64,000 bases of DNA from Sphingomonas yantingensis (GTDB lineage Bacteria; Pseudomonadota; Alphaproteobacteria; Sphingomonadales; Sphingomonadaceae). The notes beneath the pieces are model-generated. The model was not told the origin of the DNA, ran no database searches, and saw nothing but the letters and a program-made list of their open reading frames with translations. The DNA lies in contig NZ_JACIJJ010000002.1 of the NCBI RefSeq assembly GCF_014199325.1, positions 558,001 through 622,000 of the forward strand. Reading direction: 5' to 3'. Below, piece after piece: positions 3,760 through 64,000 of the stretch (position 1 is the stretch's first letter; each line of letters starts with the position of its first letter). The position numbers and the translations under genes were made by a program.

Positions 3760-3770
3760 CGTGTCTGCGG

Positions 3771-45353: not shown

Positions 45354-45384
45354 GGGGGCAGGCTCCGCAACGTTCAGTGATCAG

Positions 45385-45461
45385 TGGTGCCCCGAGAGAG
45401 ACTCGAACTCCCGACCTGCGGTTTAGGAAACCGTTGCTCTGTCCTGCTGAGCTATCGGGGC
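45385..45461 (-). tRNA. tRNA-Arg (anticodon CCT)
   Basis: The reverse complement folds as a cloverleaf: acceptor stem GCCCCGA/TCGGGGC, D-arm GCTC...GAGC, anticodon loop TTCCTAA giving CCT, T-arm with GTTCGAGT, and a genome-encoded 3' CCA. The 77 bases include CCA. Confidence 0.95.
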
Positions 45462-45496
45462 ACGCGCGCCCGCCCTATGGCAGCGAGGCGGCGGAA

Positions 45497-46770: not shown

Positions 46771-47024
46771 GCCGACAGCAGTGCGTCGAGCCGCCCCTCG
46801 CGCTCCAGCGCGGCAAGGTCGTCGGAGCCGCCGACATGCGCGCCGTCGATGAACACCTGCGGCACCGTCGTTCGGCCGTTCGCGCGGTCGATCATCTCGG
46901 CGCGCTTCGGCCCGCCCATGGTGATGTCATATTCCTCGAACGCGGCGCCCTTCTGCGAAAGGAGCCGCTTGGCGCGCGTGCAATAGGGGCACCACGCCTT
47001 GGTATAGATTTCGACATTGGCCAT
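46767..47024 (-). CDS. grxC: glutaredoxin 3
   Basis: 85 residues. Redox motif C12-P-Y-C15 (YTKAWCPYCTRAK), then the glutathione-binding GRTTVPQVFIDG. It is the first of a three-gene overlapping set with the nitrilase and DUF1178 genes. Confidence 0.96.
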   Translation of the reverse strand: MANVEIYTKAWCPYCTRAKRLLSQKGAAFEEYDITMGGPKRAEMIDRANGRTTVPQVFIDGAHVGGSDDLAALEREGRLDALLSA

Positions 47025-47055
47025 GGGAGCGAGGTGGAAAGCGCGGGCGCGCTTG

Positions 47056-47730: not shown

Positions 47731-47733
47731 AAG
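47704..47733. repeat. inverted repeat between comF and the methyltransferase gene
   Basis: CTTGTGC at 47704-47710 and its exact reverse complement GCACAAG at 47727-47733, with a GC-rich, self-complementary interior. It lies at the divergent start region and could be an operator. Confidence 0.35.
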
Positions 47734-47741
47734 CGCGGGCG

Positions 47742-48593
47742 ATGGCGACCACCCCGCCCCCCGAACCCTTTTCGCGATCGGCCCGGCGCCTGCGCCGCGA
47801 CCGCGCCCAGCCCGGTTATGCCGGCCACGATTTCCTGCGCGCGGCGATGCTGGAGGGAATCGAGGAACGGCTGGCGGCGGTGCAGCGGCCGCTCAAGGAC
47901 TTCCTCGACCTCGGCAGTTTCGATGGGGCGTTCGTGCCCCCGCCGGGCGCGCGGGTGGCGCGGCTGGATCCGGGCTTCGCCTTTGCGCGGGCGACCGGGG
48001 GCGTGCAGGGGGACGAGGATCGGCTGCCCTTCGCCGATGCCAGCTTCGACTGCGTCGTGTCGGCGGGCGTGCTCGATCAGGTCAACGACGTGCCCGGCGC
48101 ACTGGCACTGGCGCGGCGGGTGCTGCGGCCCGACGGGCTGTTCCTCGCCGCGTTCGTCGGGGCCGGCAGCCTGCCGGTGCTGCGCGCCGCGCTGCTTGAG
48201 GGAGAATCGCCGCGGGCGGTTGCGCGCGTGCATCCGCAGATCGACGTGCGCTCGGCCGGCGACTTGCTGTCGCGCGCGGGCCTGACGCTGCCGGTCGCCG
48301 ATATCGAGCCGCTGGCGGTGCGTTATGCGGGGATCGGGCGGCTGATCGAGGACTTGCGCGGGATGGGCGCGACCAACCTCCTGAAGGACACGCCGCCGCT
48401 GACCCGAACCGCGCTGGCCCGCGCAGCTGAGGCATTCGCCGCACGCGCCGATGCCGATGGCCGTGTGACCGAGCGGTTCCAGATCGTCTTCCTGACCGGC
48501 TGGGCGCCCGATCCCAGCCAGCCCAAGCCCGCGCGGCGCGGCAGCGGCAGGGCCAGCCTCGCCGACGCACTCCGTCCCGAAGGACCCGCATGA
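47742..48593 (+). CDS. class I SAM methyltransferase (NDUFAF5/BioC-like)
   Basis: 283 residues. SAM-binding FLDLGSFDGAFV, then LPFADASFDCVVSAGVL and RRVLRPDGLFLAAF are standard class I motifs. The N-terminal RRLRRDRAQPGYAGHDFLRA and later MGATNLLKD fit the NDUFAF5-type family, which modifies a complex I subunit in mitochondria. The substrate here is inferred. It overlaps the M20 gene by 4 bases. Confidence 0.82.
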   Translation: MATTPPPEPFSRSARRLRRDRAQPGYAGHDFLRAAMLEGIEERLAAVQRPLKDFLDLGSFDGAFVPPPGARVARLDPGFAFARATGGVQGDEDRLPFADASFDCVVSAGVLDQVNDVPGALALARRVLRPDGLFLAAFVGAGSLPVLRAALLEGESPRAVARVHPQIDVRSAGDLLSRAGLTLPVADIEPLAVRYAGIGRLIEDLRGMGATNLLKDTPPLTRTALARAAEAFAARADADGRVTERFQIVFLTGWAPDPSQPKPARRGSGRASLADALRPEGPA

Positions 48594-49903
48594 TCCGTTC
48601 GCTGATCCCGCTCGCGGCGCTCGTCGCCGCGCCGCTCGCCGCGCAGGAGGCCGTTCGCGACGCGACGGCGGCGCAGATGCCGGCGCTCACCGCGCTCTAC
48701 CGCGCTCTCCACGCCAATCCCGAACTCGCATTTCAGGAGAAGCGTTCGGCGAAACTGATGGCGGACGCGGCGCGCAAGGCGGGCTTCACCGTGACCGAGG
48801 GGGTGGGCCAGACCGGCGTCGTCGCGGTGATGAAGAACGGCCCCGGCCCGACGCTGCTGATCCGCACCGACATGGACGGCCTGCCCGTGGCCGAGGCGAC
48901 CGGGCTGCCCTTCGCGTCGAAGGCGCGGGCGACGACGGCCGAGGGGAACGAGACCGCGGTGATGCACGCCTGCGGCCACGACACGCACATGGCCGGCTGG
49001 GTGGGGACGCTGAACAACCTTGCCCGCATGAAGGATCGATGGTCGGGCACGCTGATCATGATCGCGCAGCCCGCCGAGGAACGCGGGCTGGGGGCCAAGG
49101 CGATGCTCGACGACGGGCTCTACACCCGGTTTCCAAAGCCCGACGTGGCGCTCGCCTTTCACGACAGCGCCTCGCTGCCCGCGGGCACGATCGGGGTGCG
49201 GCCGGGCTTCGCGCTGGCGACGGTCGATTCGGTCGATCTTACCGTGCGCGGGGTGGGCGGACACGGCGCCTATCCCAGCGGCACGCGCGATCCCGTGGTG
49301 CTGGGCGCCAAGATCGTGATGGCGCTCCAGACGCTGGTCAGCCGCGAGAACGATCCGCAATCGCCCGCGGTGGTGACGGTCGGCAGCTTCCGTGCCGGCA
49401 CCAGCCACAACGTCATCGGCGACGAGGCGACGCTGCTCATCACCGTCCGCAGTTACGAGGAAAAGACGCGAAAGCTCCTTCTCGACGGCATCGCCCGGAT
49501 CGCCCGTGGTGAGGCGATCGCCAGCGGCGTGCCGGAGGACCGGATGCCGGTGATGACCGTCCGCCCGAACTCGACCCCCGCGACGTTCAACACCGATCCG
49601 CTCACCGGGCGCATCCGCTCGGTCTTCGAGACGCGCTTCGGCAAGGCGCGCGTCGCCGACGTGCCCGCGGCAATGGTGGGCGAGGATTTCAGCCGCTATT
49701 ACCTCGCCGACAAGGCAGGCGTGCAGAGCCTGCTCTTCTGGGTCGGCGGCGTGCCTCAAGCGAAGTGGGATGCGGCGCAGGCAGCGGGCGCGTCGCTCCC
49801 CTCGCTGCACAGCCCCGCCTGGGCACCCGATGCCGAGACGGTGTTCGCGACCGCCGCGGAGGCGATGACCGCCGCGGCGCTCGACGTGCTGAAAAAGGGC
49901 TAG
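48590..49903 (+). CDS. exported M20 family amidohydrolase
   Basis: 437 residues with a signal peptide (cleavage near LAAQ). M20 metal motifs: IRTDMDGLPV, HACGHDTHMAG (126-133), AEE in IAQPAEERG, and the dimerisation domain around VRGVGGHGAYP. Close relatives are hippurate or N-acyl-amino-acid hydrolases. Its stop shares CTAG with the converging lipoprotein gene. Confidence 0.9.
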   Translation: MIRSLIPLAALVAAPLAAQEAVRDATAAQMPALTALYRALHANPELAFQEKRSAKLMADAARKAGFTVTEGVGQTGVVAVMKNGPGPTLLIRTDMDGLPVAEATGLPFASKARATTAEGNETAVMHACGHDTHMAGWVGTLNNLARMKDRWSGTLIMIAQPAEERGLGAKAMLDDGLYTRFPKPDVALAFHDSASLPAGTIGVRPGFALATVDSVDLTVRGVGGHGAYPSGTRDPVVLGAKIVMALQTLVSRENDPQSPAVVTVGSFRAGTSHNVIGDEATLLITVRSYEEKTRKLLLDGIARIARGEAIASGVPEDRMPVMTVRPNSTPATFNTDPLTGRIRSVFETRFGKARVADVPAAMVGEDFSRYYLADKAGVQSLLFWVGGVPQAKWDAAQAAGASLPSLHSPAWAPDAETVFATAAEAMTAAALDVLKKG

Positions 49904-50367
49904 GCGCCCGCCAGCGGCGTGCCCGACCGCTCGCAGACATAGCGCGCCAGTTCCTCGCGCAGCGGCATGCCGTGGATCGAGCGGAGCGGGCCGTCATGCG
50001 CGACGTCGCTTTCCACCCGCCCGCGGGTGGGGGCGACGCCGACGACGTGGAATAGGCGCTTCCCGCAATCGACCTCGGTCCGGGCATAGGCGACGCGGTC
50101 GTCATGCTCCTGCCGGATGATCGCGATGCTGGTGCCCGCCAGCGTCGAGCGGTGGCGAAGCAGGTAATAATCGGAGCGCTTGTCCGACGGCGTGGGGATC
50201 AGGTCGCCGACGATATCGAGCTTCGCCGGCTTGAGCGCCGCCACCTCGGTCTCGGCTAGGTTGCGCAGCACCACGGTGCCGCCGTCGTTGCTCGATGCGT
50301 CGCTCGTCCCGCACGCGCCCAGCATCAATGCCCCGGTCATCACCCCCATCGCCATCATCGTCCGCAT
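49900..50367 (-). CDS. small lipoprotein of unknown function
   Basis: 155 residues. Lipobox LGAC at about residue 19. The mature part has two cysteines (EVDCGKRLF and VCERSG) that could form a disulfide. No family is recognised. A GAGGAG ribosome site supports ATG 50367. The 3' end overlaps the M20 stop. Confidence 0.7.
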   Translation of the reverse strand: MRTMMAMGVMTGALMLGACGTSDASSNDGGTVVLRNLAETEVAALKPAKLDIVGDLIPTPSDKRSDYYLLRHRSTLAGTSIAIIRQEHDDRVAYARTEVDCGKRLFHVVGVAPTRGRVESDVAHDGPLRSIHGMPLREELARYVCERSGTPLAGA

Positions 50368-50396
50368 ACCGGCATCTCTCCTCAAAAAGGGGGCGC

Positions 50397-50528
50397 TCAG
50401 CGTGGTCGCAGAAGCTCGACGGCGACGCCGAGCCCCAGCGCGATGGCGACAATCAACGCGCTGGCGGCATCGTTCCACGTGGGTCCGAGGTCGATCAGGC
50501 GGGTCGAAAGGTCGTTGAAGTCGAACAC
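50397..50528 (-). CDS. possible 43-residue single-span membrane protein
   Basis: GTG-started ORF: a polar N-terminus (FDFNDLSTRLIDLGPTWNDA), one hydrophobic helix (ASALIVAIALGLGVAVEL) and a basic end (RPR). AAGGGG lies about 10 bases upstream. It ends 29 bases before the lipoprotein start, so the two could be co-transcribed. It is only a candidate. Confidence 0.4.
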   Translation of the reverse strand: MFDFNDLSTRLIDLGPTWNDAASALIVAIALGLGVAVELLRPR

Positions 50529-50646
50529 GTTGAGCCGTCCCCTTGGGTCAGCGCGGCGGGCGCCGCGTCGAGGGAACAGCTAAGCGCGTGCGCGTTGCGT
50601 TACTCGCACCGCACCGCAACAAATTATTGCTGACGAAAGTTAGCCT

Positions 50647-50677
50647 GGGCGGGTGCGGCGATAGACCGCACCCGCCC
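50647..50677 (-). terminator. terminator of the NAD-GDH gene
   Basis: Twelve-base perfect stem, GGGCGGGTGCGG at 50647-50658 pairing with CCGCACCCGCCC at 50666-50677. It starts six bases past the gdh stop on the minus strand. The T-run is poor. Confidence 0.7.
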
Positions 50678-50682
50678 GGAAA

Positions 50683-53600
50683 TCAGCGCCCGAGAAGGAC
50701 GCGGGCCTGCCCGGCGATCTGCGCGAGCATCGCCGCGCTCGGGCTGGGCGCCCGGCGCGCACGTGCCACGAGCGAGGCGAACTGCTCGACGCGCGGGCGA
50801 TTCGTCGCCAGCCACGCATCGACCGCCGCCTGCGGATCGCGCCCGTCCTGCCGCGACAGGAAGTCGAGGCGGAGCTGCTGGAAATCGCGCGCAAGGCCCG
50901 CGATCAGCAGCCGCTCCCACGGATCGCCCGAGGCGACGCGCGCGGCATTCGCCTGTGCCCAGTCGAGGCCGAGCGCATGGCCCAGATGCGTGAACGCGCG
51001 CGTCAGCACCGCCTCCTCGGTTCCGAGCCGCTGGCTGAGATCGGCCAGGCCCACCGCGCCGTCGAGTTCGAAGATGCGGACGACCTTCTTCACCAGCGCG
51101 GCGGGTGCGCCTGCTGCCTCCAGCCGGTCGGCGATCCGCGCCGACTGCGCGCTTGCCTCTTCGAGCAACAGGTCGCGGGTCTGACGGTCGAGGCTGGCGA
51201 TGCCGGGCTTCAGCCGGGCGATGACTTCGCCCGGCCGCGTGCCGGGTGCGGCGATGCGGAGCAGGTCGGCGATCTGCGACCGGGTGGCGACCGCCACTTC
51301 CTCGAGCAGCGCAAGCCGCGCGCCCTCGGGCATGTCGGTCGTCTCGATCGCTTCCCAGAGCGCGGGGAGGCCGAACAGCCGCTCGGCCACGACGAACATG
51401 CCGGCGATGTCGGCCATGCCGGCGCCTTCCTCTTCGGCAAGCTCGAAGGGGTGGAGGACGCCAAGGCGATTGACGACGCGGTTGGCGAGCTTCGTCGCGA
51501 CGATCTCGTTGCGAAGGCGATGCTGGCGGATCGCGTCGGCGAACTTCTTCTGCATCGGCCGGGGGAAAGCGGCCATCAGGTCGGGCTCGAGTTCGGGGTC
51601 CTGTCCCAGCTCGGCCTGTTCGATCGCATCCTGTAGCGCCAGCTTGGCGCTCGCCAGCAGTACCGCGAGCTCGGGCCGGGTGAGGCCGCGGCCCTCCTGC
51701 GCGACGCGGAGCATGTCCTCGTTGGTGCCCAGCCCCTCGACCGTGCGGTCGAGCCGGCCGTTCGCCTCGAGGATCTCGATCACGCGGACATAGCTCGGCA
51801 CCGCGACCGACCCGTCATTCTCCATGAACGACAGCGCAAGCGTCTGGAGGCGATTGTCCTCCAGCACCAGCTCCGACACCTCGTCGGTCATCGACACGAG
51901 CAGGTCGTCGCGCTTGGCGAGCTTCAACCGGCCCTCGGTCACTTCGCGGTTGAGCGCGATCTTGATGTTGACCTCGTTGTCCGAGCAATCGACGCCCGCC
52001 GAATTGTCGATGAAGTCGGTGTTGATGCGCCCGCCCTTCGTCGCGAACGCGATGCGCGCGGCCTGCGTGACGCCCAGATTCGCGCCCTCGCCGATCGCCT
52101 TCGCGCGCACCTGTTCGGCATTGACGCGCAGGCGGTCGTTGGCAGGGTCGCCGACCTCGGCGTTATTTTCGTGTCCCGCCTTGATGTAGGTGCCGATGCC
52201 ACCAAACCAGATGAGGTCCACGGGCGCTTTCAGGATCGCACCGATCAGGCTGGTGGGGTCGAGCTCGGTTGCGTCCACGCCCAGCAGCTCGCGGACCTGT
52301 TTCGAGAGCTTGATCGACTTTTCGGTGCGCGCGAACACGCCGCCGCCCTTGGAAATCAGCGAGGGGTCGTAGTCCGCCCAGCTCGACCGCGGCAGCGCAA
52401 ACAGCCTGTCGCGCTCCGCCCAGCTCGCCGACGGATCGGGATCGGGGTCGAGGAAGATGTGGCGATGGTCGAATGCGGCGCGCAGGCGGATCGCCTTGGA
52501 CAGCAGCATGCCGTTACCGAACACGTCGCCCGACATGTCGCCGCAACCGACGACGTCGATCGGCTGCGTCTGCACGTCGACGCCCATTTCGAGGAAATGG
52601 CGCTGCACCGACACCCAGCCGCCCTTGGCGGTGATGCCCATCGCCTTGTGGTCGTAGCCCTTCGACCCGCCGCTGGCGAAGGCGTCGCCCAGCCAGAAGC
52701 CGCGTTCCTGCGCGATCGCGTTGGCGACGTCGCTGAAGCTCGCCGTGCCCTTGTCGGCAGCGACGACGAAATAGGGGTCCTCGCCGTCGTGGATCACGAC
52801 GCTGTCGGGATGCACCACGGCGCCGTCGACGATGTTGTCGGTGATCGACAGGAGCGAGCGGATGAAGATGCGATAGCTCTCCGTCCCCTCGGCCAGCCAC
52901 GCCTCACGATCCGACGACGGCGGCAGTTGCTTGGGATAGAAGCCACCCTTCGCGCCGGTCGGCACGATGACTGCGTTCTTCACGCGCTGCGCCTTCATCA
53001 GGCCGAGGATCTCGGTGCGGAAATCGTCGCGCCGGTCCGACCAGCGAAGGCCGCCGCGCGCGACCGGGCCGGCACGCAGATGGATACCCTCCACCCGCGG
53101 CGAATAGACGAAGATCTCGCGCCAGGGGAGGGGCAGGGGCAGGCCCGGTACCTTGGCCGAATCGAGCTTGAACGCCAGCGCCTCGTCCGCGGCGGGCGCA
53201 AAGGCGTTGGTGCGCAGCGTCGCCGCGACGACGCCGCGAAGCGCGCGCAGGATGCGGTCGTCGTCGATTGCGGAGACGGCGTCGAGGCCGCTCTCGATCG
53301 CCTTCGCCGCCTTCTCGATCGCCGCGTCGCGCCCGTCGGCGCGCGACGGATCGTGCGCGGCCGAGAAATGCGCGATCAGCCCCGCCGCGACCTTCGGCGC
53401 GCGGCGCAGCGCATCGACGACGGTACCGAGGCCGTAAGCCAGACCCGTCTGGCGCAGATAGCGGAACCACGCGCGATAGAGGACGACCGACAGCGGCGAC
53501 GTGCCCGCCTCGACCACCAGCCGGTTAAAGGCGTCGTTCTCCGCGCGGTTCTCCAGCACCGCCTGGATCGCCGCCTCGACCATCGGGTGGTCCAGGTGCT

Positions 53601-55314
53601 TCTCGGCATGCGGAGCGCCCGGCACCTCGACATAGAAATCGTGGATGACGATCTCGCCCTCGCCGTCGAGCAGGGTCGGCAGCTCGGCGATGACGCGAAA
53701 GCCGAAATTCTCGAGCGCGGGGACCGCGTCCGACAAGGGCAGCGCGCCGCCGCGGCGATAGATCTTGATGCGGAAGCGGCCGTCGTCGGGATTGTCGTCG
53801 GCGAGGATCCGAACCTGCCGGTCGTTCGCCTCTTCCAGTTCAGCGATGCGCAGCACGTCCTGTGCCGCTTCCTCCGGCGTGAAGGCGTTGCGGTAATTGA
53901 CCGGGAAGCTGCTGGCATGGCGCAGCGCCAGCCGCGCCGCGCGGCCCGCGCCGGCCAGATCGACCAGCGCCGCCTCCACCGCCGCGGACCAGCCGCGCAT
54001 CATGCGGACAAGGCGGTCGTCCAGCGCCTCGGCATCGGGCATCCGGCCCGCGCCGCGCAGGTCGAGCGTGTAGCGGATCAGCGCCGTCTCGCCGTCTTCG
54101 AGGCTGATCGACCAGCTGAGCAGCGAGGCGTTCGCCGCCTCCGCCAGCATCGTGCCGATCGCCTCGCGCCGGCCCGTCGTCAGCTCGTCGCGCGGCAGCC
54201 AGACGAAGCCGAACAGGTGCCGGCCGAGTACCGACTTCACCAGCACCAGCTTGGGTCGCGGGCGATCGGCGATCGACATCGCGGTGAGGACCAGTGTTTC
54301 CAGCGCATCCTGATCGAACGCGGTGGTCAGGTCGTGCGGCAGTTCGGTCAGCGAATGCGCCATCGCCTTGCCGGTGTGGCCGCGCGGGTCGAAGCCGAAC
54401 TTGGCGGTCAGCGCCTTGAGGCTGCGGCGGAGCAGCGGCACCTCGTGCGGCGGCGAATGCAGCGCCGCACTGGTCCACAGGCCGGCATGAATCGACAGGC
54501 CGGTGACCCGCTCACCCTTCAGGATCGGCAGCAGCACGAGATCGAGCGGCACGCGGCGATGGACGGTCGAGATGCAGTTCGACTTGAGGAGCAGCGGCGC
54601 GCGGCCACCCTTGGCGAAATACTCGGCGGCAAGGCCGCGCGACGCTTCGGCCAGCAGCGGCGTCTCCAGTGGTTCGGCGGCGATGCCGATCGCATCGCGC
54701 ACGCCGCCCTCGACGTCCCAGCACTCGTGGCCGAGCAGCGTCATGTGCCCGTCAAGGAACCAGCGGAGCAGCGCCGCGCCCTCGTCATCCTCGGTCCGGT
54801 CGGCATCGGCCGACAGCGCCGCCTGAAGCTGCGGCCAGTCGGCGACCGCGCGGCGGACATGGCCAAGATTGCGCTCGAGATCCTCGACCACTTCGCGCCG
54901 TTCCTTGGCGTCCAGCCGATCCATCTCGATATAGACCATCGATTCGGGGGCGCCGGCGTCGTCGTCGATCGCGGTCAGCGCGCCGCTCTTGTCGCGCACG
55001 ACGCGCAGGACCGGATGGACCAGCCGCTCGATCGGGGCGCCCGCCGCGCCGATCGTCGCGGCGATCGAATCGACCAGGAACGGCATGTCGTCGTTGATGA
55101 CAGCGAGGCGCATCCGCCGCCGCTCGTCACGAGCAAAGGTGTCGATGGCGATCGCGGGGCGGCCGGGCGGGCGCGTCGCCGCCGCCTCCGCCACGAAGCC
55201 CGCCGCATCGGCGCGCTCGGCCTTGTCGAGGCCCTCAGTCTCTCCCGGAAGCGCTCCATCGAAGAAGCGCGCTGCGATCGCCTTGGCCGGCGTCGTGCCT
55301 TTCTTGCTCAGCAT
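50683..55314 (-). CDS. gdhB: NAD-specific glutamate dehydrogenase, large (about 180 kDa) type
   Basis: 1543 residues, near the 1600-residue norm for this family. The N-terminal regulatory half contains ACT-like parts (DTFARDERRRMRLAVINDDMPFLVDSI). The catalytic core includes the lysine-bearing PTGAKGGFYPKQLPP and VVGCGDMSGDVFGNGMLLS. It deaminates glutamate to 2-oxoglutarate. Start 55314 was chosen over an ATG at 55419 that would run into the PAS gene. The PAS_5 gene lies 58 bases upstream. Confidence 0.95.
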   Translation of the reverse strand: MLSKKGTTPAKAIAARFFDGALPGETEGLDKAERADAAGFVAEAAATRPPGRPAIAIDTFARDERRRMRLAVINDDMPFLVDSIAATIGAAGAPIERLVHPVLRVVRDKSGALTAIDDDAGAPESMVYIEMDRLDAKERREVVEDLERNLGHVRRAVADWPQLQAALSADADRTEDDEGAALLRWFLDGHMTLLGHECWDVEGGVRDAIGIAAEPLETPLLAEASRGLAAEYFAKGGRAPLLLKSNCISTVHRRVPLDLVLLPILKGERVTGLSIHAGLWTSAALHSPPHEVPLLRRSLKALTAKFGFDPRGHTGKAMAHSLTELPHDLTTAFDQDALETLVLTAMSIADRPRPKLVLVKSVLGRHLFGFVWLPRDELTTGRREAIGTMLAEAANASLLSWSISLEDGETALIRYTLDLRGAGRMPDAEALDDRLVRMMRGWSAAVEAALVDLAGAGRAARLALRHASSFPVNYRNAFTPEEAAQDVLRIAELEEANDRQVRILADDNPDDGRFRIKIYRRGGALPLSDAVPALENFGFRVIAELPTLLDGEGEIVIHDFYVEVPGAPHAEKHLDHPMVEAAIQAVLENRAENDAFNRLVVEAGTSPLSVVLYRAWFRYLRQTGLAYGLGTVVDALRRAPKVAAGLIAHFSAAHDPSRADGRDAAIEKAAKAIESGLDAVSAIDDDRILRALRGVVAATLRTNAFAPAADEALAFKLDSAKVPGLPLPLPWREIFVYSPRVEGIHLRAGPVARGGLRWSDRRDDFRTEILGLMKAQRVKNAVIVPTGAKGGFYPKQLPPSSDREAWLAEGTESYRIFIRSLLSITDNIVDGAVVHPDSVVIHDGEDPYFVVAADKGTASFSDVANAIAQERGFWLGDAFASGGSKGYDHKAMGITAKGGWVSVQRHFLEMGVDVQTQPIDVVGCGDMSGDVFGNGMLLSKAIRLRAAFDHRHIFLDPDPDPSASWAERDRLFALPRSSWADYDPSLISKGGGVFARTEKSIKLSKQVRELLGVDATELDPTSLIGAILKAPVDLIWFGGIGTYIKAGHENNAEVGDPANDRLRVNAEQVRAKAIGEGANLGVTQAARIAFATKGGRINTDFIDNSAGVDCSDNEVNIKIALNREVTEGRLKLAKRDDLLVSMTDEVSELVLEDNRLQTLALSFMENDGSVAVPSYVRVIEILEANGRLDRTVEGLGTNEDMLRVAQEGRGLTRPELAVLLASAKLALQDAIEQAELGQDPELEPDLMAAFPRPMQKKFADAIRQHRLRNEIVATKLANRVVNRLGVLHPFELAEEEGAGMADIAGMFVVAERLFGLPALWEAIETTDMPEGARLALLEEVAVATRSQIADLLRIAAPGTRPGEVIARLKPGIASLDRQTRDLLLEEASAQSARIADRLEAAGAPAALVKKVVRIFELDGAVGLADLSQRLGTEEAVLTRAFTHLGHALGLDWAQANAARVASGDPWERLLIAGLARDFQQLRLDFLSRQDGRDPQAAVDAWLATNRPRVEQFASLVARARRAPSPSAAMLAQIAGQARVLLGR

Positions 55315-55372
55315 GGGCGGGCCTATGCGCCCAATGCCCGATAGTCTCAAGCCATACGATCGGGCCGTACGA

Positions 55373-56632
55373 TCAGCCGCCGGCGGAGCGGATCGCCTTT
55401 TCGGTGAGCGCCGCCTCACCCTCGACCCGGGCGACCACCTCGAGCATCCCGTTCAGGCCCGCGCGCGCTACCAGAAGGACGAATTCCTCGTCCCCCGCAG
55501 CGATCGGCAGCGAGGCGATCGGCGCCTTTGCCCGCAGCATATCGGCGGCGGCGGCAAAGCCATCGGGCCTTGTCGCCGGCCGGCGCACGGCGCGCTCGGC
55601 GGCGACGATCCCCTTGATCCCGCCCTCGGCGCCCGACAGGAACGCCGCGAATCCCTCGACTGCGATCCCCTGGCGACGAGCGTGCGTCAGCACGGCGGCA
55701 TATTCGGTCAGCCGCGTCTTGTCTTGGCCCACACCGAAGACGAGCTTGACGATTGGCGTCATCGGCGCGCGCGCCTGCGGCTTGAGTCCCGCATCGTCGA
55801 GCAGTTCGGCATAACCCTCAGGATCGCCCGCCGCGGCCTCTGCAAAGGCATAGGCGCGATCGAGCGCGCGATACAGCGCGGCGCGGGTCCGCTTGTCGGC
55901 TTGGCCCACATCGTCGGCGCAGGCGCGTGCATTGTCGAGCAGGTCGGCAAGCCCGGCATCGGCATCGAGGAAATCTGGCGCCACCGGCGCTTCGTCTACC
56001 GGCGGCTCGGCAAACACCGCCGAGGGGCCGTCGGCCCAGGCCGGTGCCACCGCCACCTCGATCCGCGGCAACTCGCGGCGCGCCGCCTCTACCTCCGCGG
56101 CCAGACGTGCCTGCATCTCGTCGTCGACGGTCACCTTCCAGTTGATGACGCCGTAGATGAAGTCGATCGTGTCGTCATCGGAGGAGAAGGGCATCAGGAT
56201 GCCGCGATAGAGCGTGTTCTGTCCCTTCTGGCCGACGAACTCCGCCTCGAACCCGATCGGCGCGCGGTTGGCGATGATCTGGAGATAATGGTCGGTCAGC
56301 CGCGACAGCAGCGAGCGGGCGGGCACTTCGCTGATCTGGCGGATGCTCGCCTCGACCCCGCATTCCTCGCGCAGTGACCGGCCGAGATAGGCGACCGCCG
56401 GATCCTCGACCCCATGCGAGAAATCGAGGAGCACGCTGTTCGCGCCGAAATCGGCGATGTTCGTGGGATCGAGATCCTCGATCGAGGGATAGGCGCGCCC
56501 GCCGAGCAGCGAGACCCAGTAATTATAGGCGCGGACGTGCATCCGGCGCTCGTCGGTGCCGATGTCGAGCGGGTGCCCCGCGCCGCCGGTCTTTGCGGTC
56601 GCCTCGCCCTCTGCGCCCTTCACCATGTTCAT
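55373..56632 (-). CDS. PAS_5 (DUF1388-like) domain regulator
   Basis: 419 residues. The N-terminal PAS_5 domain spans about residues 30-165 (YNYWVSLLGGRAYPSIEDLDP, then RLTDHYLQIIANRAPIGFEAEF). The C-terminal half is mostly helical, of unknown type. PAS_5 proteins such as Caulobacter MopJ affect cell-cycle and nutrient signalling. It precedes the NAD-GDH gene, so a metabolic sensor is a fair guess. A GAGGA ribosome site supports 56632. Confidence 0.78.
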   Translation of the reverse strand: MNMVKGAEGEATAKTGGAGHPLDIGTDERRMHVRAYNYWVSLLGGRAYPSIEDLDPTNIADFGANSVLLDFSHGVEDPAVAYLGRSLREECGVEASIRQISEVPARSLLSRLTDHYLQIIANRAPIGFEAEFVGQKGQNTLYRGILMPFSSDDDTIDFIYGVINWKVTVDDEMQARLAAEVEAARRELPRIEVAVAPAWADGPSAVFAEPPVDEAPVAPDFLDADAGLADLLDNARACADDVGQADKRTRAALYRALDRAYAFAEAAAGDPEGYAELLDDAGLKPQARAPMTPIVKLVFGVGQDKTRLTEYAAVLTHARRQGIAVEGFAAFLSGAEGGIKGIVAAERAVRRPATRPDGFAAAADMLRAKAPIASLPIAAGDEEFVLLVARAGLNGMLEVVARVEGEAALTEKAIRSAGG

Positions 56633-56806
56633 GCCGCCATCCTCGCTCGGGCACGAAGCGCCCCTTGGTCCTTGGGCGCCGTTTTGCACGCTGCTTGGTA
56701 AACGATGTGTAAAGCCGCCGGGCGGACGCGATCGCGCTCAAGCCCGCTTGTCAGCTCGCCCGACCCCTGCTAAGCGCCCCGCCTCGACGCCGTTTCGGCG
56801 CCCGGA

Positions 56807-56882
56807 GCCGCCTTAGCTCAGTTGGTAGAGCATCGCATTCGTAATGCGGGGGTCACAGGTTCGAGTCCTGTAGGCGGCACCA
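56807..56882 (+). tRNA. tRNA-Thr (anticodon CGT)
   Basis: Cloverleaf of 76 bases: acceptor GCCGCCT/AGGCGGC, D-arm GCTC...GAGC, anticodon loop TTCGTAA giving CGT, T-arm GTTCGAGT, and encoded CCA. The gene sits at the edge of the restriction-modification region, so its 3' end is a candidate integration site. Confidence 0.95.
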
Positions 56883-57261
56883 CCACTTTCAGCAGGGGAA
56901 TTCGGCGGCGTCCAAGCGAACGTGCGTTCGGCTGGGTCGGCGTTTGGGTACTACGTGGGACGCTTTGGGGTAGGAAGCGCGGCCAAATCCAGCTGACGCT
57001 CTTCTGAGGCCTGAGGCGTCTGCTGTCGGGCCGGTTCAGGATTGACAGCTTTCAGCTGCGCGGCTCACCAGATCGGTCGGTGCAGATTGTCGACGGTGCG
57101 TGGGGCTTTCAGTCGTGAACTACCCCACAGCTATCGGCCGATCAGGCGAAAAGTCCTTACGACGGATTGTCGCGTTGCCCGATTGGGGTTTAACCGCCCT
57201 CCATACCCTCTAACCGCCCGCGAGGTATCAGCTTGTCGCTCGCTCAAGGGCTGGCTAGCTG
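56883..57261. other. gene-free stretch at the island border
   Basis: 379 bases between tRNA-Thr and hsdM. Short open frames are present on the plus strand, but none has a plausible ribosome site or protein-like composition. No clear inverted repeat or integrase remnant is seen. It probably holds the hsd promoter. Confidence 0.5.
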
Positions 57262-58719
57262 ATGCCCATGTTCGAAAACGCATTCAACAGCGTCGATCGC
57301 GCGATGCGCAATGACGAGGGCCTGGCGTCGGAGCTCGAGTATGCCGAGCAGACCAGCTGGATCCTGTTCCTGAAATACCTCGACGATCTCGAATCCGCGC
57401 AGGAAGATGAGGCCGAACTCGAGGGTCGCGAGTACCAACCGATCCTGGAACCTGAATATCGATGGGATGTGTGGGCCGCACCGAAGCGGTATGATGGCGA
57501 GATTGATCATCAGATCGCCATGACGGGTCAGGACCTGATCGATTTCGTCAATGGAAAGCTGTTCCCCTATCTGAAGGGCTTCAGCAAATCTGCCAGCGAT
57601 GCCGAAACCATCGAATACAAGATCGGCGAAATTTTCACTGAGATCATCAACCGCTTCCGCTCCGGCTACTCCCTGCGCGAGGTAATCGACATCGTCGACA
57701 CGCTCGATTTCGGCAGTAGCAAGGCCAAGCACGAGCTGTCCGATCTCTACGAGACCCGTATCAAGCGCATGGGGAACGCCGGGCGCAATGGCGGCGAATA
57801 TTACACCCCGCGGCCGCTCATTCGCGCCATGATCAAGGTCGTTGACCCCACGATCGGCGAGACCATCTACGACGGTGCGGCTGGTTCGGCCGGGTTTCTT
57901 TGCGAGGCGTTCGAATACCTGCGCCGGCCGGACCTGTCCGCTGCCGAGTGGGACATTCTACAGCGTAAGACCTTCTACGGGCAGGAGAAGAAATCACTCG
58001 CCTATGTGCTGGGCGTGATGAACATGATCCTGCACGGGATCGAGGCGCCGCAGATCCGCCACACCAACACGCTCACCGAGAACGTGATGGACATCCAGCA
58101 GGCCGACCGTCACGACATCGTGCTGGCCAACCCGCCCTTCGGCGGCGGTGAGCGCAAGGAGGTGCAGCAGAACTTCCCGATCAAGTCTGGGGAGACCGCC
58201 TACCTCTTTATGCAGCACTTCATCCGCAAGCTGAAAGCCGGCGGGCGCGCGGCGGTGGTGATCAAGAACACCTTTCTCAGCAACACCGACAACGCCAGCG
58301 TCGAACTGCGCAAGGAATTGCTGACCAGCTGCAACCTCCATACCGTGCTCGATTGCCCCGGCGGCACGTTCCAGGGCGCAGGCGTGAAGACGGTGGTGCT
58401 GTTCTTCGAGAAGGGCGCGCCCACCCGGCAGGTCTGGTATTACCAGCTCGATCCGGGCCGCTCGCTCGGCAAGACCAATGCGCTAAATGACGACGACCTT
58501 GCCGAGTTCGTCGCCCTTCAGTCGGACAAGGCGGACAGCGCCAAGAGCTGGACGGTGGATGTCGGCGATCTCGACAAGGCGACATGGGATCTGTCGGTCC
58601 GCAATCCTACCGCACCCGAGGAAGCGCCGCTGCGCGCACCCGAGCAGATAATCGCCGACATGCTCGCCCGCGACGACGAGACGCGGCAAATCCTTGAAGA
58701 GATCCGGGGGATGCTGTGA
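57262..58719 (+). CDS. hsdM: type I restriction-modification DNA methyltransferase subunit
   Basis: 485 residues, full length. The N-terminal HsdM helical domain (AEQTSWILFLKYLDDLE) precedes the adenine methyltransferase core with motif I YDGAAGSAGFL (204-213) and catalytic NPPF (290-293). It methylates the target site with HsdS and forms the restriction complex with HsdR. A second ATG at 57268 is possible. Its stop overlaps the hsdS GTG (GTGA). Confidence 0.95.
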   Translation: MPMFENAFNSVDRAMRNDEGLASELEYAEQTSWILFLKYLDDLESAQEDEAELEGREYQPILEPEYRWDVWAAPKRYDGEIDHQIAMTGQDLIDFVNGKLFPYLKGFSKSASDAETIEYKIGEIFTEIINRFRSGYSLREVIDIVDTLDFGSSKAKHELSDLYETRIKRMGNAGRNGGEYYTPRPLIRAMIKVVDPTIGETIYDGAAGSAGFLCEAFEYLRRPDLSAAEWDILQRKTFYGQEKKSLAYVLGVMNMILHGIEAPQIRHTNTLTENVMDIQQADRHDIVLANPPFGGGERKEVQQNFPIKSGETAYLFMQHFIRKLKAGGRAAVVIKNTFLSNTDNASVELRKELLTSCNLHTVLDCPGGTFQGAGVKTVVLFFEKGAPTRQVWYYQLDPGRSLGKTNALNDDDLAEFVALQSDKADSAKSWTVDVGDLDKATWDLSVRNPTAPEEAPLRAPEQIIADMLARDDETRQILEEIRGML

Positions 58720-59984
58720 CAGCCATCGCCAAAGCTTCCGACAAAGCATTTGGATGGCGGCGGCTTCCATTGGAGGATTGCTGCACGTTCCACAACGGGC
58801 TCTGGACCGGGAAGAAGCCGCCTTTCGAAACAGCGACCGTCATCCGAAACACCAACTTCACTGCCGACGGATTGATCGATCTCTCGGACGTGGCGGTGCT
58901 GCAAGTCGAAGCCAACCAGCTTAGTAAGCGCCGCCTCCAAAAGGGCGACATCATCATCGAGAAGTCAGGCGGCGGCCCCAAGCAGCCCGTTGGCCGTGTT
59001 GTGCTGTTCGACATCGATGAAGGCGTTTACTCCTTCAGCAACTTCACAAGCGCAATACGAGTCAAAGACCAGAACCAGCTTGACCCCCGATACCTCCACC
59101 GCGTTTTGTATTGGTGGTATGTGGACGGGCGGACGGAGCCACTCCAGCGACGATCAACCGGTATCCGAAATCTGGACTTCAGCGCATATCAACGCCTCGA
59201 GGTGCCGATACCGCCGCTGGAAGAGCAGAAGCGGATTGTTGCGGTGCTGGATCAGGCCTTCGACGCCCTCGACCGCGCCCACGCCCGAGCCGAAGCCAAT
59301 CTGGCGGATGCCGAAGGCTTCTTTGCATCGTTCATCGAAGCCGAGCTCGAGAAATCTGGCGGTGCCGTTTTGACGCTGCAGCAGATGCTGGATGCTGGCA
59401 TGATTCTCAGTCATCTCGACGGCAATCACGGAGAGAACTATCCCCGCAAAGAAGAGTTCGTTGACGAAGGTGTCCCGTATGTGTCGGCCAACTGCATCAA
59501 AGATGGGCGAATCGATCTAACACTTGCGAAATTTCTTTCAGAGGATCGCGCCGCCGTCTTTAGAAAGGGCGTGGCCCAAGACGGCGACGTCATCTTCGCA
59601 CACAACGCCACGGTAGGGCCTGTCGCAACCCTCAGAACAGAAAATTCCAAGGTCATTTTGAGCACATCGGTGACCTATTATCGTCCTTTTTTGGAAAGGG
59701 TTCTCCCTGAGTTTCTCATGTATGAGATGCGTAGCTCGGCATTCAAAAAACAATACGAGGCGGTCATGAAGCAGGCTACTCGAAATCAGGTTCCGATCAC
59801 CGCTCAGCGAAGACTCACCCACACCATACCCGATTTGCCTGTCCAAAGGCGGGTTATTGCTGCAGCTATTGAACTTGAAGGAAAATCGCGAAGCCTTAAC
59901 GATCTTTATTCTGGGCAGATCTCGGACATCAACGAAATGAGAGCATCCCTCCTAAAAAAAGCCTTCGCCGGGGAGCTGACCTGA
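58716..59984 (+). CDS. hsdS: type I restriction-modification specificity subunit
   Basis: 422 residues. Two target-recognition domains are visible: the first about 1-170, the second about 215-400. They are separated by helical conserved regions (PLEEQKRIVAVLDQAFDALDRAHA and LPVQRRVIAAAIELEGK). It sets the DNA target for both methylation and cutting. The start is GTG inside the hsdM stop. The second half is AT-richer than the chromosome around it. Confidence 0.93.
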   Translation: MTAIAKASDKAFGWRRLPLEDCCTFHNGLWTGKKPPFETATVIRNTNFTADGLIDLSDVAVLQVEANQLSKRRLQKGDIIIEKSGGGPKQPVGRVVLFDIDEGVYSFSNFTSAIRVKDQNQLDPRYLHRVLYWWYVDGRTEPLQRRSTGIRNLDFSAYQRLEVPIPPLEEQKRIVAVLDQAFDALDRAHARAEANLADAEGFFASFIEAELEKSGGAVLTLQQMLDAGMILSHLDGNHGENYPRKEEFVDEGVPYVSANCIKDGRIDLTLAKFLSEDRAAVFRKGVAQDGDVIFAHNATVGPVATLRTENSKVILSTSVTYYRPFLERVLPEFLMYEMRSSAFKKQYEAVMKQATRNQVPITAQRRLTHTIPDLPVQRRVIAAAIELEGKSRSLNDLYSGQISDINEMRASLLKKAFAGELT

Positions 59985-59988: not shown

Positions 59989-62295
59989 ATGCAGGAAACT
60001 GAAGCTGATACCCGCGCCAATCGCATCGATCCTATTCTGCGTGATGCCGGCTGGGGAGTGGTCGAGGGCGCGCAAATCCGGCGGGAGGCGATCTGCCCCG
60101 GCCGCATCATGCCCGGTGGGCAGCGCGGGGCACCGCTCTCGGCCGATTACGTCTTTGAATATCGCGGGCATAAGCTCGCTACGATGGAGGCCAAGCGCCA
60201 CGGCAAGGGTGCAGGCGCGGGCGTCGGTCAGGCCAAGGATTACTCGACCCGCCTGAAGGCGCGCTTCGCCTATGCCTCCGACGGGGCCCAGTGGTATGAG
60301 GTCGACATGCACACGGGCAAGGAAGGGGCCATCGCCCCGCCTTTCCCGACGCCCGACGAGTTGTGGCAACGGTGCTTCCCGACCGGCAATGCATGGCGCG
60401 AACGCTTCGGTGCGGTGCCCTTTGAGACCGGCGGCGGCAAGTGGCAGCCGCGCTATTATCAGCACAACGCCGTCACCGCCGTGCTGGAGGCGATTGCCAA
60501 GGATCAGCAGCGCATCCTGCTGACGCTCGCCACGGGCACGGGCAAGACCTCGATCGCATTCCAGATCGCGTGGAAGCTGTTTCAGTCGCGCTGGAACCTG
60601 ACCCGCGAGCCAACCCGCCGCCCGCGCATCCTGTTTCTCGCCGATCGCAACATCCTCGCGGATCAGGCCTACAACGCCTTCAGCGCCTTCCCGCCCGACG
60701 CGCTGTGCCGCATCAGCCCGGAGGAAATCCGCAAGCAGGGCAAGGTGCCCACCAATGCGAGCGTGTTCTTCACGATCTTCCAGACCTTCATGACCGGCGA
60801 CGATGAGTTCCGGTTCGAGGGGTATGAGCCGGACTTCTTCGACTTCATCGTGATCGACGAATGCCACCGCGGCGGCGCGCGGGACGAAAGCACGTGGCGC
60901 GGGATCCTCGAATACTTCGCGCCCGCCGTGCAGCTTGGCCTCACCGCCACGCCCAAGCGGGACGTGAACGCCGACACCTACCGCTATTTCGGCGACCCGG
61001 TTTATACCTATGCGCTGAAGGAAGGGATCGGCGACGGCTTCCTCACGCCGTTCAAGGTGCGCCAGATGGCGAGCACCATGGACACCTATACCTTCAGCGA
61101 TGAGGACGAGGTGGTGAGCGGGGAGATCGACCCGGACAAGGAATACACCGAGGCCGATTTCAACACGAAGCTGATCATCGACGAGCGCGAGATGAGCCGG
61201 GTGTGCGAGTTCATGGACCAGATCGACCAGCGCCAGAAGACGTTGGTGTTCTGCGCGACGCAGGATCACGCCGCCCGGGTGCGCAACTTCATCAACCAGG
61301 TGAAGACCAACCCCGACCCGCACTACTGCGAGCGGGTGACGGCGGACGACGGCAAGCTGGGCGAACAGCACCTGCGCGAGTTCCAGGACAACGAAAAGAC
61401 CCTGCCGACGATCCTCACCACATCGCAGAAGCTCTCGACGGGGGTGGACGCGCGCAATGTGCGCAACATCGTGCTGTTGCGCCCGGTGAAGTCGATGATC
61501 GAGTTCAAGCAGATCATCGGCCGGGGCACGCGCACGTTCGACGGGAAGGACTTCTTCACAATTTACGACTTTGTGAAGGCCTATCAACACTTCAAGGATC
61601 CGGCGTGGGACGGCGAGCCCGAAGAGCCAGTAACAGGACCGGGTGGGCCGAAGCCGCCGCGGCCGCCCGAGCCGCCCGACGGTGGTGACGATCCGGTCGA
61701 GCCCACGCCTCCGGGTGAAAAGGTGGTGGTGAAGCTCGCCGACGGCAAAGAACGCAAGATCCGGTATGTCGCCGAGACGACCTATTGGTTCAACGGCCGA
61801 CAGATCACCGCGAAGGAGTTCATGGAGCAGCTGTTTGGCGATCTTGGCACCATGGTTGGCAGCGCCGATGAGCTTCGCGCGATCTGGACGGATCCCGACC
61901 GCCGAACTGTATTCATCCGGCGGCTCGAAGAAATGGGCTATGATCACGATCGCATGGACGACATGCGCCGACTGATCGATGCTCCCAATAGCGATATTTT
62001 CGATGTGCTCGCTTACGTGCGTTTTATGCTCAGTCCGCGTTCGCGCTCAACACGGGTTGAGGGCGCAAAGGCAACAGGGCTGTCTGGCTATGAGGCCGAA
62101 ATGCGGGAGTTCCTGACCTATATCCTGCAGGCTTACGAAATGCAGGGAATCCAAGAGCTCGCCCCGCACCGGATCAGCGATTTTCTGCAGATTAGGTATG
62201 GCGGCACCAATGATGCAAAACGAGCGCTTGGATCGATCCCGCAGATCAGGAGCGCCTTCATCAATATCCAGAGGCACCTCTTTATCCAAGGATAG
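59989..62295 (+). CDS. hsdR: type I restriction endonuclease subunit, EcoEI-like
   Basis: 768 residues. The nuclease motif is D53 with E67-A-K69 (MEAKRHGKG). The SF2 translocase has ATGTGKT (181-187), DECH (290-293), LTATPK, and motif VI QIIGRGTR (508-515). A proline-rich linker of about 30 residues (544-577) joins it to a C-terminal helical domain. It cuts unmethylated DNA after ATP-driven translocation. It starts 4 bases after hsdS and has all key residues, so the system looks intact. Confidence 0.95.
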   Translation: MQETEADTRANRIDPILRDAGWGVVEGAQIRREAICPGRIMPGGQRGAPLSADYVFEYRGHKLATMEAKRHGKGAGAGVGQAKDYSTRLKARFAYASDGAQWYEVDMHTGKEGAIAPPFPTPDELWQRCFPTGNAWRERFGAVPFETGGGKWQPRYYQHNAVTAVLEAIAKDQQRILLTLATGTGKTSIAFQIAWKLFQSRWNLTREPTRRPRILFLADRNILADQAYNAFSAFPPDALCRISPEEIRKQGKVPTNASVFFTIFQTFMTGDDEFRFEGYEPDFFDFIVIDECHRGGARDESTWRGILEYFAPAVQLGLTATPKRDVNADTYRYFGDPVYTYALKEGIGDGFLTPFKVRQMASTMDTYTFSDEDEVVSGEIDPDKEYTEADFNTKLIIDEREMSRVCEFMDQIDQRQKTLVFCATQDHAARVRNFINQVKTNPDPHYCERVTADDGKLGEQHLREFQDNEKTLPTILTTSQKLSTGVDARNVRNIVLLRPVKSMIEFKQIIGRGTRTFDGKDFFTIYDFVKAYQHFKDPAWDGEPEEPVTGPGGPKPPRPPEPPDGGDDPVEPTPPGEKVVVKLADGKERKIRYVAETTYWFNGRQITAKEFMEQLFGDLGTMVGSADELRAIWTDPDRRTVFIRRLEEMGYDHDRMDDMRRLIDAPNSDIFDVLAYVRFMLSPRSRSTRVEGAKATGLSGYEAEMREFLTYILQAYEMQGIQELAPHRISDFLQIRYGGTNDAKRALGSIPQIRSAFINIQRHLFIQG

Positions 62296-62682
62296 AACGG
62301 CTCTTCCTGGGCTGGTTGCTGACTCACAACTTTCGGGAGGTCGATCGAGGAAAGCTGCCACAGCCGGCCTTTGGCCGCGCACGATAGCTTCGGCCAAAGT
62401 CAGTCGTCAGCGCCGGCCGATCGACTGCCAGCTCGCGGCCGATGCGGCCCTTGAGACCGATCGAAGCTGACGAATTGCCCAGCGAGCGACGCTGAGGGTT
62501 AGGAGGGCCTCGTGTATACTCTCCTCACGAGCTTCGGCCAGCTCCTGGGGAAAGGGCCCCTCCCTGGTCCTTGGTCTTGGATGCCGGATGCTTTCATTCG
62601 CCCGACAGGCGAACGCCGGACCTACCTTGCTTTACCAGCTCGTGAAGAGGAACATGGCATAAGGGACTTCGAGGGGGCGCAT
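62296..62682. other. gene-free stretch before the AAA ATPase gene
   Basis: 387 bases with no convincing gene. An in-frame open extension of the ATPase runs back to a GTG at 62512, which has an AGGAGG ribosome site, but this region also holds a good -10 element at 62515-62520 that would place transcription start after that GTG. Confidence 0.5.
62515..62520 (+). promoter_or_regulatory. possible -10 element (TATACT) for the AAA ATPase gene
   Basis: TATACT preceded by TG. The matching -35 region (62492-62497, CTGAGG) is weak at a 17-base spacing. Transcription would start near 62527, which favours the later start codons at 62581 or 62683. Confidence 0.35.
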
Positions 62683-64000
62683 GTGATCCGCAAGGTATCG
62701 CTAATCAATTTCAAGAAATTCAAGAATACCGAGTTCGAGCTCCATCCTGCTGGGCTTTCGTTCTTAGCTGGAGGTAACAACTCCGGGAAGTCGACACTTC
62801 TGCAGGCAATGGCCGTCTGGGACTTCTGCCGGACCGTCTTGGAGATGGAGCGAGGCCGAGAGAGCCTCTATCCCGGTTACGGAAGGCAGGGCCTAGGCCT
62901 ATCGGATGATGAATTCTCACCACTTGCGTTGCCGAGTCTGAAGCACCTTTGGACGAATCTGACTACTCAGCAGCCAGGTGCAGATGGTTACTCATTATCG
63001 ATTCGCTGCGACTGGACCGACGTGGCGGGTGCAGACAAACATCTGACTTTGGTATTGGCCCTAGCGAATGACCGGCTCTTCTTAAAAGCGTCCAGCACAA
63101 ACCTCGCAGACGGCGATCTGCTGCCTCCCCTGGCTTACCTACCGCCATTCGCAGGCATCAGCAGTCGTGAAAACTACATGTCGGGAGCTGAACGGAGAGC
63201 CATGATCGGTCGCGGACTCGCCGGCGGCGTGATCCGAAACCTGTTGCACGACCTTCACGGGGAGAATGAGAGAAGACGTGCCGAGCTCAAGGAGGGACGG
63301 ACAAAGATCAAAAATTCGGACCTCGAACGCCTTCGGGCCGAGGATCCCTGGGAGGTCCTGCAGCAAACCATGGCGGAAGTTTTCGGTCTTCAGCTTGACG
63401 TGGCGCCCTTCAATGACCTGTATCACACCTACATCAAAGTGAGCACGATCAAGGGCCGATTAGACGGCCGCAAGTTCACGCGCCACAGCGGCTATAAAGC
63501 GCGGGATTTGATGGCGGAGGGAAGTGGGTTTTTGCAGTGGCTGAGCGTGTACGCGCTGGCTGTTTCGCCCTCCGTTCGGACGCTCCTTCTTGATGAGCCG
63601 GATGCGCACCTGCATCCCTCTTTGCAGTCGCAGCTAGTCGAAAAGCTCGAAAGCATCGCTCAACGAAGTGGGAAGCAGGTGTTGCTTGCCACGCACAGCA
63701 CCGAGATCCTGCGGTGGGCCGATCACTCGCAGGTCCTCCGCTTTTCCGGGTCGGGAGCCAAATACCTCCAGGAGGCTGACCAAAAGGTTGGCTTGTTCCT
63801 CGGGCTTGGAAGTGATTATGCGCCAAAGCTCGACCCCCTTAGGCGTGCCCGTCGGCTGCTCATCATTGAGAATCTGAGTGACGCGCGCTTGCTAAAGGCT
63901 TGGGCCAAGCAGCTCGGCACTGCTTGGCCAAAGAACCTGGTAGAGTGGCCTTGGACCGGTGGCAGCGGGGAGCGCAAGCAGCTATTCCTCCAGTTGCAGA
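62683..64000 (+). CDS. OLD-like AAA ATPase with possible TOPRIM domain (partial, runs off the window)
   Basis: At least 439 residues; the 3' end is not in view. Walker A is GGNNSGKST (30-38), an ABC-type signature region is GSGFLQWLSV, Walker B is LLLDEPDAHLHP (D304, E305), and the H-loop is ATHS (336-339). After these, RLLIIENLSDARLL resembles the start of a TOPRIM domain as in OLD and GajA nucleases, but with glutamate-asparagine-leucine in place of the usual acidic-glycine pattern. The GTG start at 62683 has a GAGGGGG site; 62581 and 62512 are alternatives. It is likely a defence ATPase-nuclease. Confidence 0.75.
   Translation, partial: MIRKVSLINFKKFKNTEFELHPAGLSFLAGGNNSGKSTLLQAMAVWDFCRTVLEMERGRESLYPGYGRQGLGLSDDEFSPLALPSLKHLWTNLTTQQPGADGYSLSIRCDWTDVAGADKHLTLVLALANDRLFLKASSTNLADGDLLPPLAYLPPFAGISSRENYMSGAERRAMIGRGLAGGVIRNLLHDLHGENERRRAELKEGRTKIKNSDLERLRAEDPWEVLQQTMAEVFGLQLDVAPFNDLYHTYIKVSTIKGRLDGRKFTRHSGYKARDLMAEGSGFLQWLSVYALAVSPSVRTLLLDEPDAHLHPSLQSQLVEKLESIAQRSGKQVLLATHSTEILRWADHSQVLRFSGSGAKYLQEADQKVGLFLGLGSDYAPKLDPLRRARRLLIIENLSDARLLKAWAKQLGTAWPKNLVEWPWTGGSGERKQLFLQLQ

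Follow-up and report, generated by a model that had tools for sequence, protein, structure and literature searches.

An OLD-type ATPase-TOPRIM gene beside a type I restriction-modification operon in Sphingomonas yantingensis, probably a one-gene anti-phage system

PARIS has been described as a defence system that senses the anti-restriction protein Ocr of phage T7 and whose TOPRIM effector cuts tRNA (PMC9122126, PMC12409363, PMC11455837), and its discoverers detected it by the domain DUF4435 (PMC9122126). PARIS-like modules have been reported as backup effectors recruited to BREX (PMC12839542), and WonAB is presented as another OLD-type ATPase with a nuclease, borne by a prophage (PMC12137116).

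Like fused PARIS (AriAB, represented by protein L206), the gene found in S. yantingensis encodes in one chain an OLD-type ABC ATPase and then a TOPRIM domain, with the motifs E-x-x-x-D and W-x-R-x-x-x-E-N-Y-L-L. By contrast with it, the window family is without DUF4435, matches the AriAB profile in part and leaves TOPRIM motif II unaligned, and the window protein is about 100 residues shorter than L206, its overall distance being similar to that of Old-model proteins. The two-domain architecture in a single gene is also that of class 1 OLD (P2 Old, the OLD of Thermus scotoductus), and P2 Old is phage-borne as well; however, the profile matches are weak, the Old-model protein L207 has no motif III by pattern, and the gene studied here stands beside a restriction-modification (R-M) operon. 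GajA of Gabija likewise has ATPase and TOPRIM in one chain, whereas no GajB-like helicase adjoins the window gene. The BREX-linked modules, as described in PMC12839542, are comparable in having a TOPRIM-linked OLD ABC ATPase beside a restriction-type system; there it is BREX and related systems, whereas here it is a type I R-M operon of the EcoAI group, and no type I R-M accompanies the viral-contig relatives within the stretches examined. With PrrC, which is named together with EcoprrI in PMC9122126, the likeness lies in an abortive nuclease linked to R-M.

The gene and its domains

The window, that is, the whole stretch of DNA that was analysed, is 64,000 nucleotides long (G000:C2:558001-622000), and the gene was followed past 64000 in the host genome. 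A preliminary description of the window had placed an open reading frame (ORF) at 62512-64000. This frame is real and is open from 62512 to the window end, with its stop at window-equivalent position 64443, but its start is more likely GTG 62683, because an identical GTG-ATC start is present in two relatives, L034 (79% identical) and L035 (92% identical). The -10 element of its own that had been ascribed to the gene was not recovered in a consensus promoter scan (0 promoter-like sites, against 0.8 expected in shuffled sequences), a scan that is weak evidence in both directions. The features of the gene are as follows.

62683..64443 (62683..64000 within the window), plus strand: ABC-ATPase-TOPRIM gene, 586 aa (P0002), from the ORF list and the host-genome extension
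62770..62796, plus strand: Walker A, GGNNSGKST, residues 30-38, from the sequence; core residues invariant in alignment A3
63511..63537, plus strand: signature-like MAEGSGFLQ, residues 277-285, from the sequence; EGSGFLQ invariant in A3
63583..63615, plus strand: Walker B and following residues, LLLDEPDAHLH, residues 301-311, from the Pfam search and A3
63691..63699, plus strand: H-loop THS, residues 337-339, from A3
63862..63882, plus strand: TOPRIM motif I, IIENLSD (E396, D400), from A3, profile searches and the predicted fold
beyond 64000, in L002: TOPRIM motif II, DRD, residues 452-454, from A3
beyond 64000, in L002: TOPRIM motif III, WRRRHIENY, residues 483-491, from A3

Judged from its sequence, the gene product consists of an OLD-type ABC ATPase and, C-terminal to it, a TOPRIM domain. 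The ATPase part was matched far beyond chance by Pfam AAA_15 (5.4e-21; 76.1 bits, cut-off 32.1) and also by AAA_21 (1.1e-18; 68.8 bits, cut-off 27). In A3, an alignment of ten rows of relatives from which L100 (frameshifted) and L178 (341 aa, near a contig end) were left out, the ATPase residues G30, N32, N33, G35, K36, S37, E279-Q285, D304-H311 and T337-S339 are invariant, at sites that we take to be the Walker A, signature, Walker B and H-loop motifs. The TOPRIM acids E396, D400, D452 and D454 are invariant too, and E489 nearly so (D in L096). The OLD-like AAA ATPase with all four of its motifs, and IIENLSD as the beginning of a TOPRIM domain, had both been proposed from the window alone and are upheld by these matches; extension past 64000 yielded a complete 586-aa frame with the full TOPRIM motif set.

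In searches with full proteins, the fused AriAB profile gave 70.9 bits with the window gene product (P0001) and matched nine of the ten members at E up to 1e-10, the match being partial (best stretch 334-530 of 694). With the TOPRIM part alone, this profile again matched nine of ten members (best 3.1e-11); other profiles were weaker and matched at most five of ten, the second most frequent reaching five with a best value of 0.003, and the best of the non-AriAB profiles was a GajA profile in one member (1.5e-5). In the suggested search for OLD TOPRIM and GajA, Pfam OLD-like_TOPRIM (PF20469) matched six of ten members weakly (best E 0.018), and several GajA profiles matched all ten full proteins, but over parts of the protein only. 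The best stretch of the PADLOC Old model, a weak match, falls in the ATPase part. Among the TOPRIM parts, eight of ten matched Pfam DUF3226 (best 5.7e-6); all ten A3 rows matched PHROG 9802 (function unknown), and the NCBIfam models of PtuA, MADS3 and retron Eco8 scored far below cut-off. DUF4435 (PF14491) was absent from the 9 families matched by P0001 and the 16 matched by the ten members (E up to 1), and from the 8 matched by the TOPRIM parts (E up to 10). Since this is the domain used to detect PARIS, the gene was not filed under PARIS.

Profile comparison with L206, the fused AriAB protein of another genome, extended over 463 columns (E 1.4e-8), with motif I (EGPHD) and motif III (WDRYCFENYLL) in register and motif II (DRD here, DQD in L206) unaligned. 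The comparison with the full-length Old-model protein L207 extended over 154 columns (E 9.8e-5) and covered part of the ATPase and TOPRIM motif I only; no ENY was found in L207 by the motif pattern, and an ENY-like motif is present in one Old-model protein, L208. With the family HMM, AriAB scored 35.8 bits, between two Old-model proteins (41.6 and 21.7). In the tree, where the L208 row is its minus-strand frame, AriAB and the Old rows are grouped together, with weak support and long branches, which does not settle the placement. Given these mixed AriAB and Old signals, the gene is likened to fused PARIS or class 1 OLD and is filed in neither.

The protein of the 92% relative was also modelled with AlphaFold2. 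The full-length prediction was middling (mean pLDDT 75.4, pTM 0.60), and that of the C-terminal 209 residues reached a pLDDT of 83.8 and a pTM of 0.81. For the ATPase fold, PtuA (Z 19.4) and AriA (Z 18.8) were tied. The C-terminal domain placed AriB first by Z (9.1; rmsd 5.2, 187 aligned), followed by PH0156 (8.3) and the OLD TOPRIM structures 6NK8 (8.2) and 6NJX (8.1), a spread of about one unit that amounts to a tie; absence of a fold from the VIA-align lists is uninformative. Foldseek gave no match at 1e-3 for this domain, and AriB had the best E-value (5.0e-3), with OLD TOPRIM ahead in probability (best 0.97 versus 0.87 for AriB) and in TM-score (0.40-0.47 versus 0.33-0.34). On these models, the predicted TOPRIM fold is about equally like AriB and the OLD TOPRIM domains. 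The TOPRIM-part profile found three chance-level matches among PDB sequences, none of them named as a TOPRIM protein.

The R-M operon, the tRNA-Thr island and the search for a partner

The intact type I R-M operon that had been reported beside the gene was found complete, directly upstream, and a tRNA gene precedes it.

56807..56882, plus strand: tRNA-Thr(CGT); L003:4918-4965 is a 47/48 copy of its 3'-terminal 48 bases
57262..58719, plus strand: hsdM, type I methyltransferase subunit (N6_Mtase 5.6e-61; PADLOC MTase_I 9e-158)
58716..59984, plus strand: hsdS, specificity subunit, with a 4-base overlap with hsdM (Methylase_S 6.5e-15)
59989..62295, plus strand: hsdR, restriction subunit of the EcoAI/FtnUII type (NF046051, 771 bits, cut-off 550)

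The gap between hsdR and the ATPase-TOPRIM gene is 387 bases. Because the 3' end of the tRNA-Thr gene is repeated (47/48), an island of about 24.1 kb (window-equivalent 56835-80965) could be delimited between this gene and the copy of its 3' end. The R-M operon and the ATPase-TOPRIM gene look like cargo of a mobile island, which also holds genes for a tyrosine integrase, a large serine recombinase and a RepB/ParB protein. The gene just past the right repeat is present in 61 of 61 genus genomes searched, own included. The surroundings of the TOPRIM-bearing gene are a type I R-M operon and an apparent mobile island, and not the housekeeping neighbours that, along with a missing TOPRIM domain, had been named as the opposite outcome.

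A comparison with 19.5 kb of the sister genome G027 gave no match to any part of the island, but the region is rearranged there. Its tRNA-Arg(CCT)-tRNA-Thr(CGT) segment (L160 versus window 45382-56887) is inverted relative to the gene flanking the right end of the island in G000, so that no clean empty site is demonstrated. Elsewhere in the island, an HNH_2 endonuclease gene and a divergent DUF4268 gene (L002:17545-19874) are possibly more defence genes.

A partner gene just past 64000, with the rest of the system out of view, had also been anticipated, and none was found in the ORF lists and Pfam scans. From 64444 to 65013 the plus strand is free of ORFs of at least 100 aa, and a 130-aa minus-strand ORF overlaps the end of the gene in the ORF list. 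No helicase, protease or toxin was detected with Pfam among the scanned downstream island proteins. Nine further island proteins were scanned: for eight of them Pfam yielded nothing at E up to 0.01 (for one of these, nothing at E up to 1 either), and the other had a weak match below cut-off. No GajB UvrD/Rep-like helicase adjoins the window gene, and the ORF list shows neither the HNH nuclease PtuB nor the reverse transcriptase that would mark Septu or retron I-A beside the ATPase; the island does hold an HNH_2 gene, but at a distance of about 9 kb and on the opposite strand. No helicase was seen beside the gene in the window genome, in L034, in L035 or in nine members on viral contigs, mostly from ORF lists, and the ORF lists read show no neighbour common to the close relatives. 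The UvrD-like partner that had been suggested was not found by the window gene, but such a gene does follow the distant relatives L171 and, by translation only, L046 and L047.

Relatives of the gene

A peptide-pattern scan of the species-genome collection, which reaches close relatives only, retrieved L034 and L035. L034 (Novosphingobium fuchskuhlense) has an R-M-S operon, and 41 bases separate its hsdS from the start of the gene; the HsdR of this operon is of the EcoAI type too (1171 bits) but 37% identical to the window HsdR, with 33% identity for HsdM. In L035 (Sphingomonas sp.), an insertion-sequence-like element lies upstream (by translation), and the genome has no match to the HsdM of the window. 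A cassette at L035:3372-7636 contains a QueC-like gene (Pfam QueC 1.8e-20), possibly part of a 7-deazaguanine-related system, together with transglycosylase-like, glycosylase-like and sugar-kinase-like genes (by translation only).

Nine relatives with 37-49% identity were found on viral contigs, one of them (L100) frameshifted. According to the translations read, those of L093, L094, L095 and L097 have a baseplate-V-like gene as neighbour within a P2-like late-gene cluster, flanked in L094 and L095 immediately on the opposite side by a virion morphogenesis-like gene, and those of L092, L096, L098 and L099 lie near other phage or integrase genes. The HsdM, HsdS and HsdR queries had no match in the nine viral-contig stretches read. 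The relatives stand alone in prophages, and a one-gene anti-phage alarm is therefore probable; the gene is probably a one-gene anti-phage system of a known general kind, rather than a piece of a new multi-gene system. Two further observations concern the viral contigs. In L095, the family gene and its adjoining tail genes occur twice, inverted (1-793 and 9962-11758, the former running off the end of the stretch), as either a real duplication or an assembly artefact. In L099, a cytosine-5 DNA methyltransferase gene and a neighbour (1921-3982) adjoin a portal-like gene (by translation).

In wider searches, 28 of 100 relatives were matched at 1e-3, and matches at 1e-12 were obtained in 6 of 396 genomes of the order and 5 of 385 of the class, the own genome included in each count; no other close member was present in these overlapping sets. 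The A3 search of the phylum matched 9 of 398 genomes at 1e-40, own included, and seven of the eight non-own matches form a separate clade in the tree; the core family is recovered there as a fully supported clade. This tree was made without L100, L178, L046 and L047 (L046 was aligned, L047 was not), and the short ATPase matches L060 and L061 were left unaligned. A tblastn search of the phage collection gave no match for P0002 or the L094 protein, and plasmids gave partial matches only, below 30% identity.

One of the A3 phylum matches, L171 (28% identity), belongs to a four-gene operon (L171:2756-12480). Its first two genes encode a BPTD_3080 restriction endonuclease (1329 bits, cut-off 800) and a DNA methylase; the ATPase-TOPRIM gene is third and overlaps the methylase gene, and a UvrD-like helicase gene follows. 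This operon combines R-M genes with those for an OLD-type nuclease and for a helicase. The relatives of about 25% identity at L046:3223-6079 and L047:4680-7536 are followed by an overlapping gene that resembles a UvrD-type helicase (by translation only), and they are therefore probably Gabija-like. In the remaining mid and far relatives, the HsdM, HsdS and HsdR queries were unmatched in the stretches read. Among the literature matches listed, no title or abstract opening reports a type I R-M system paired with such a gene.

Explanations for the gene

The reading that we favour, with a probability of about one half, is a one-gene anti-phage system with sensor and weapon in a single polypeptide, acting by abortive infection and travelling as mobile cargo. 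The defence function, the trigger and the substrate that we infer for the window gene are the following. The N-terminal OLD-type ABC ATPase, assigned from sequence, would multimerise and keep the TOPRIM nuclease, assigned from its motifs and predicted fold, inactive. The ATPase would then meet a phage product, by analogy with PARIS an anti-restriction or DNA-mimic protein, upon which the TOPRIM domains may pair and cut nucleic acid, so that the infected cell is stopped. Host tRNA would be a slightly likelier substrate than DNA, from the likeness to AriB, and this is the weakest step. No partner gene would be needed for a protein that is cargo of viral contigs, P2-like ones included, and here of the tRNA-Thr island. 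Beside the type I R-M operon it could serve as a second line of defence, by analogy a backup for when phages disarm HsdMSR. As a sensor-nuclease defence, the family would have the simplest possible layout, a single gene without a partner.

It is rather doubtful that the gene is instead a class 1 OLD like P2 Old, a stand-alone DNA nuclease acting on phage or unprotected DNA with ATP merely modulating it. An ABC ATPase and a TOPRIM domain in one chain, with no partner found, is the class 1 layout as given in PMC10568477, and 6NK8 and 6NJX tie with AriB in Z and exceed it in Foldseek probability and TM-score. The weak OLD-like_TOPRIM matches in six of ten members (best 0.018) and the ENY-like motif of L208 point the same way. 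However, the alignment of L207, which lacks ENY by pattern, is limited to a part of the ATPase and to TOPRIM motif I, the best stretch of the PADLOC Old model is the ATPase, and class 1 genes are described in PMC10568477 as not near other defence genes, whereas the window gene is.

The proximity of type I R-M also invites the unlikely alternative of a dedicated guard of the neighbouring operon, like PrrC with EcoprrI, that would sense inhibition of HsdMSR by anti-restriction proteins and cause abortive infection. PrrC itself belongs to a different protein family. Two of the three sphingomonad members lie directly behind a type I R-M operon, and they do so with different gene orders (M-S-R-ATPase in the window, R-M-S-ATPase in L034) and with HsdR and HsdM only 37% and 33% identical, while the L171 relative overlaps the methylase gene of its BPTD_3080-type R-M. 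PARIS is reported to be triggered by Ocr (PMC9122126) and PARIS-like modules to be recruited to BREX (PMC12839542), which also agrees with a guard. Nevertheless, none of the nine viral-contig members has an HsdM, HsdS or HsdR match in the stretch read, and the window HsdM is unmatched in the genome of the 92% relative; linkage to R-M is therefore not needed. Moreover, the clustering of defence genes alone could give such linkage, and in the window 387 bases separate the gene from hsdR. A Gabija-like or other multi-gene system, its partner missed or located elsewhere, would fit the GajA profiles that match all ten members and the UvrD-like genes behind L171 and (by translation only) L046 and L047, but is very improbable given that no helicase was seen beside the gene here, in L034, in L035 or in the nine viral-contig members, mostly from ORF lists.

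A further reading is speculative and improbable: a single-chain PARIS-like sensor-nuclease, which in phages matches PHROG 9802 (function unknown) only, would have become a cis-linked guard of R-M operons on more than one occasion, and when phage anti-restriction proteins disarm the R-M enzyme, the locus itself would answer with tRNA cleavage. If the guard reading were true, some R-M operons would have their own tripwire against anti-restriction proteins.

We know of no member of the family with an experimental record. The L094 gene is present in 5 of 5426 complete E. coli genomes at 99.5-99.9% identity, two of the records bearing one strain name. In the genome inspected, E. coli ET665, it lies in a P2-like prophage between the baseplate gene V and the virion morphogenesis gene, on the opposite strand, and the family is therefore testable in standard strains. 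P2-like prophages are known to carry defence genes, although the site described in PMC9122126, between gpA and gpQ, is a different one. The ET665 copy (WP_370613050.1) is annotated only as 'AAA family ATPase'.
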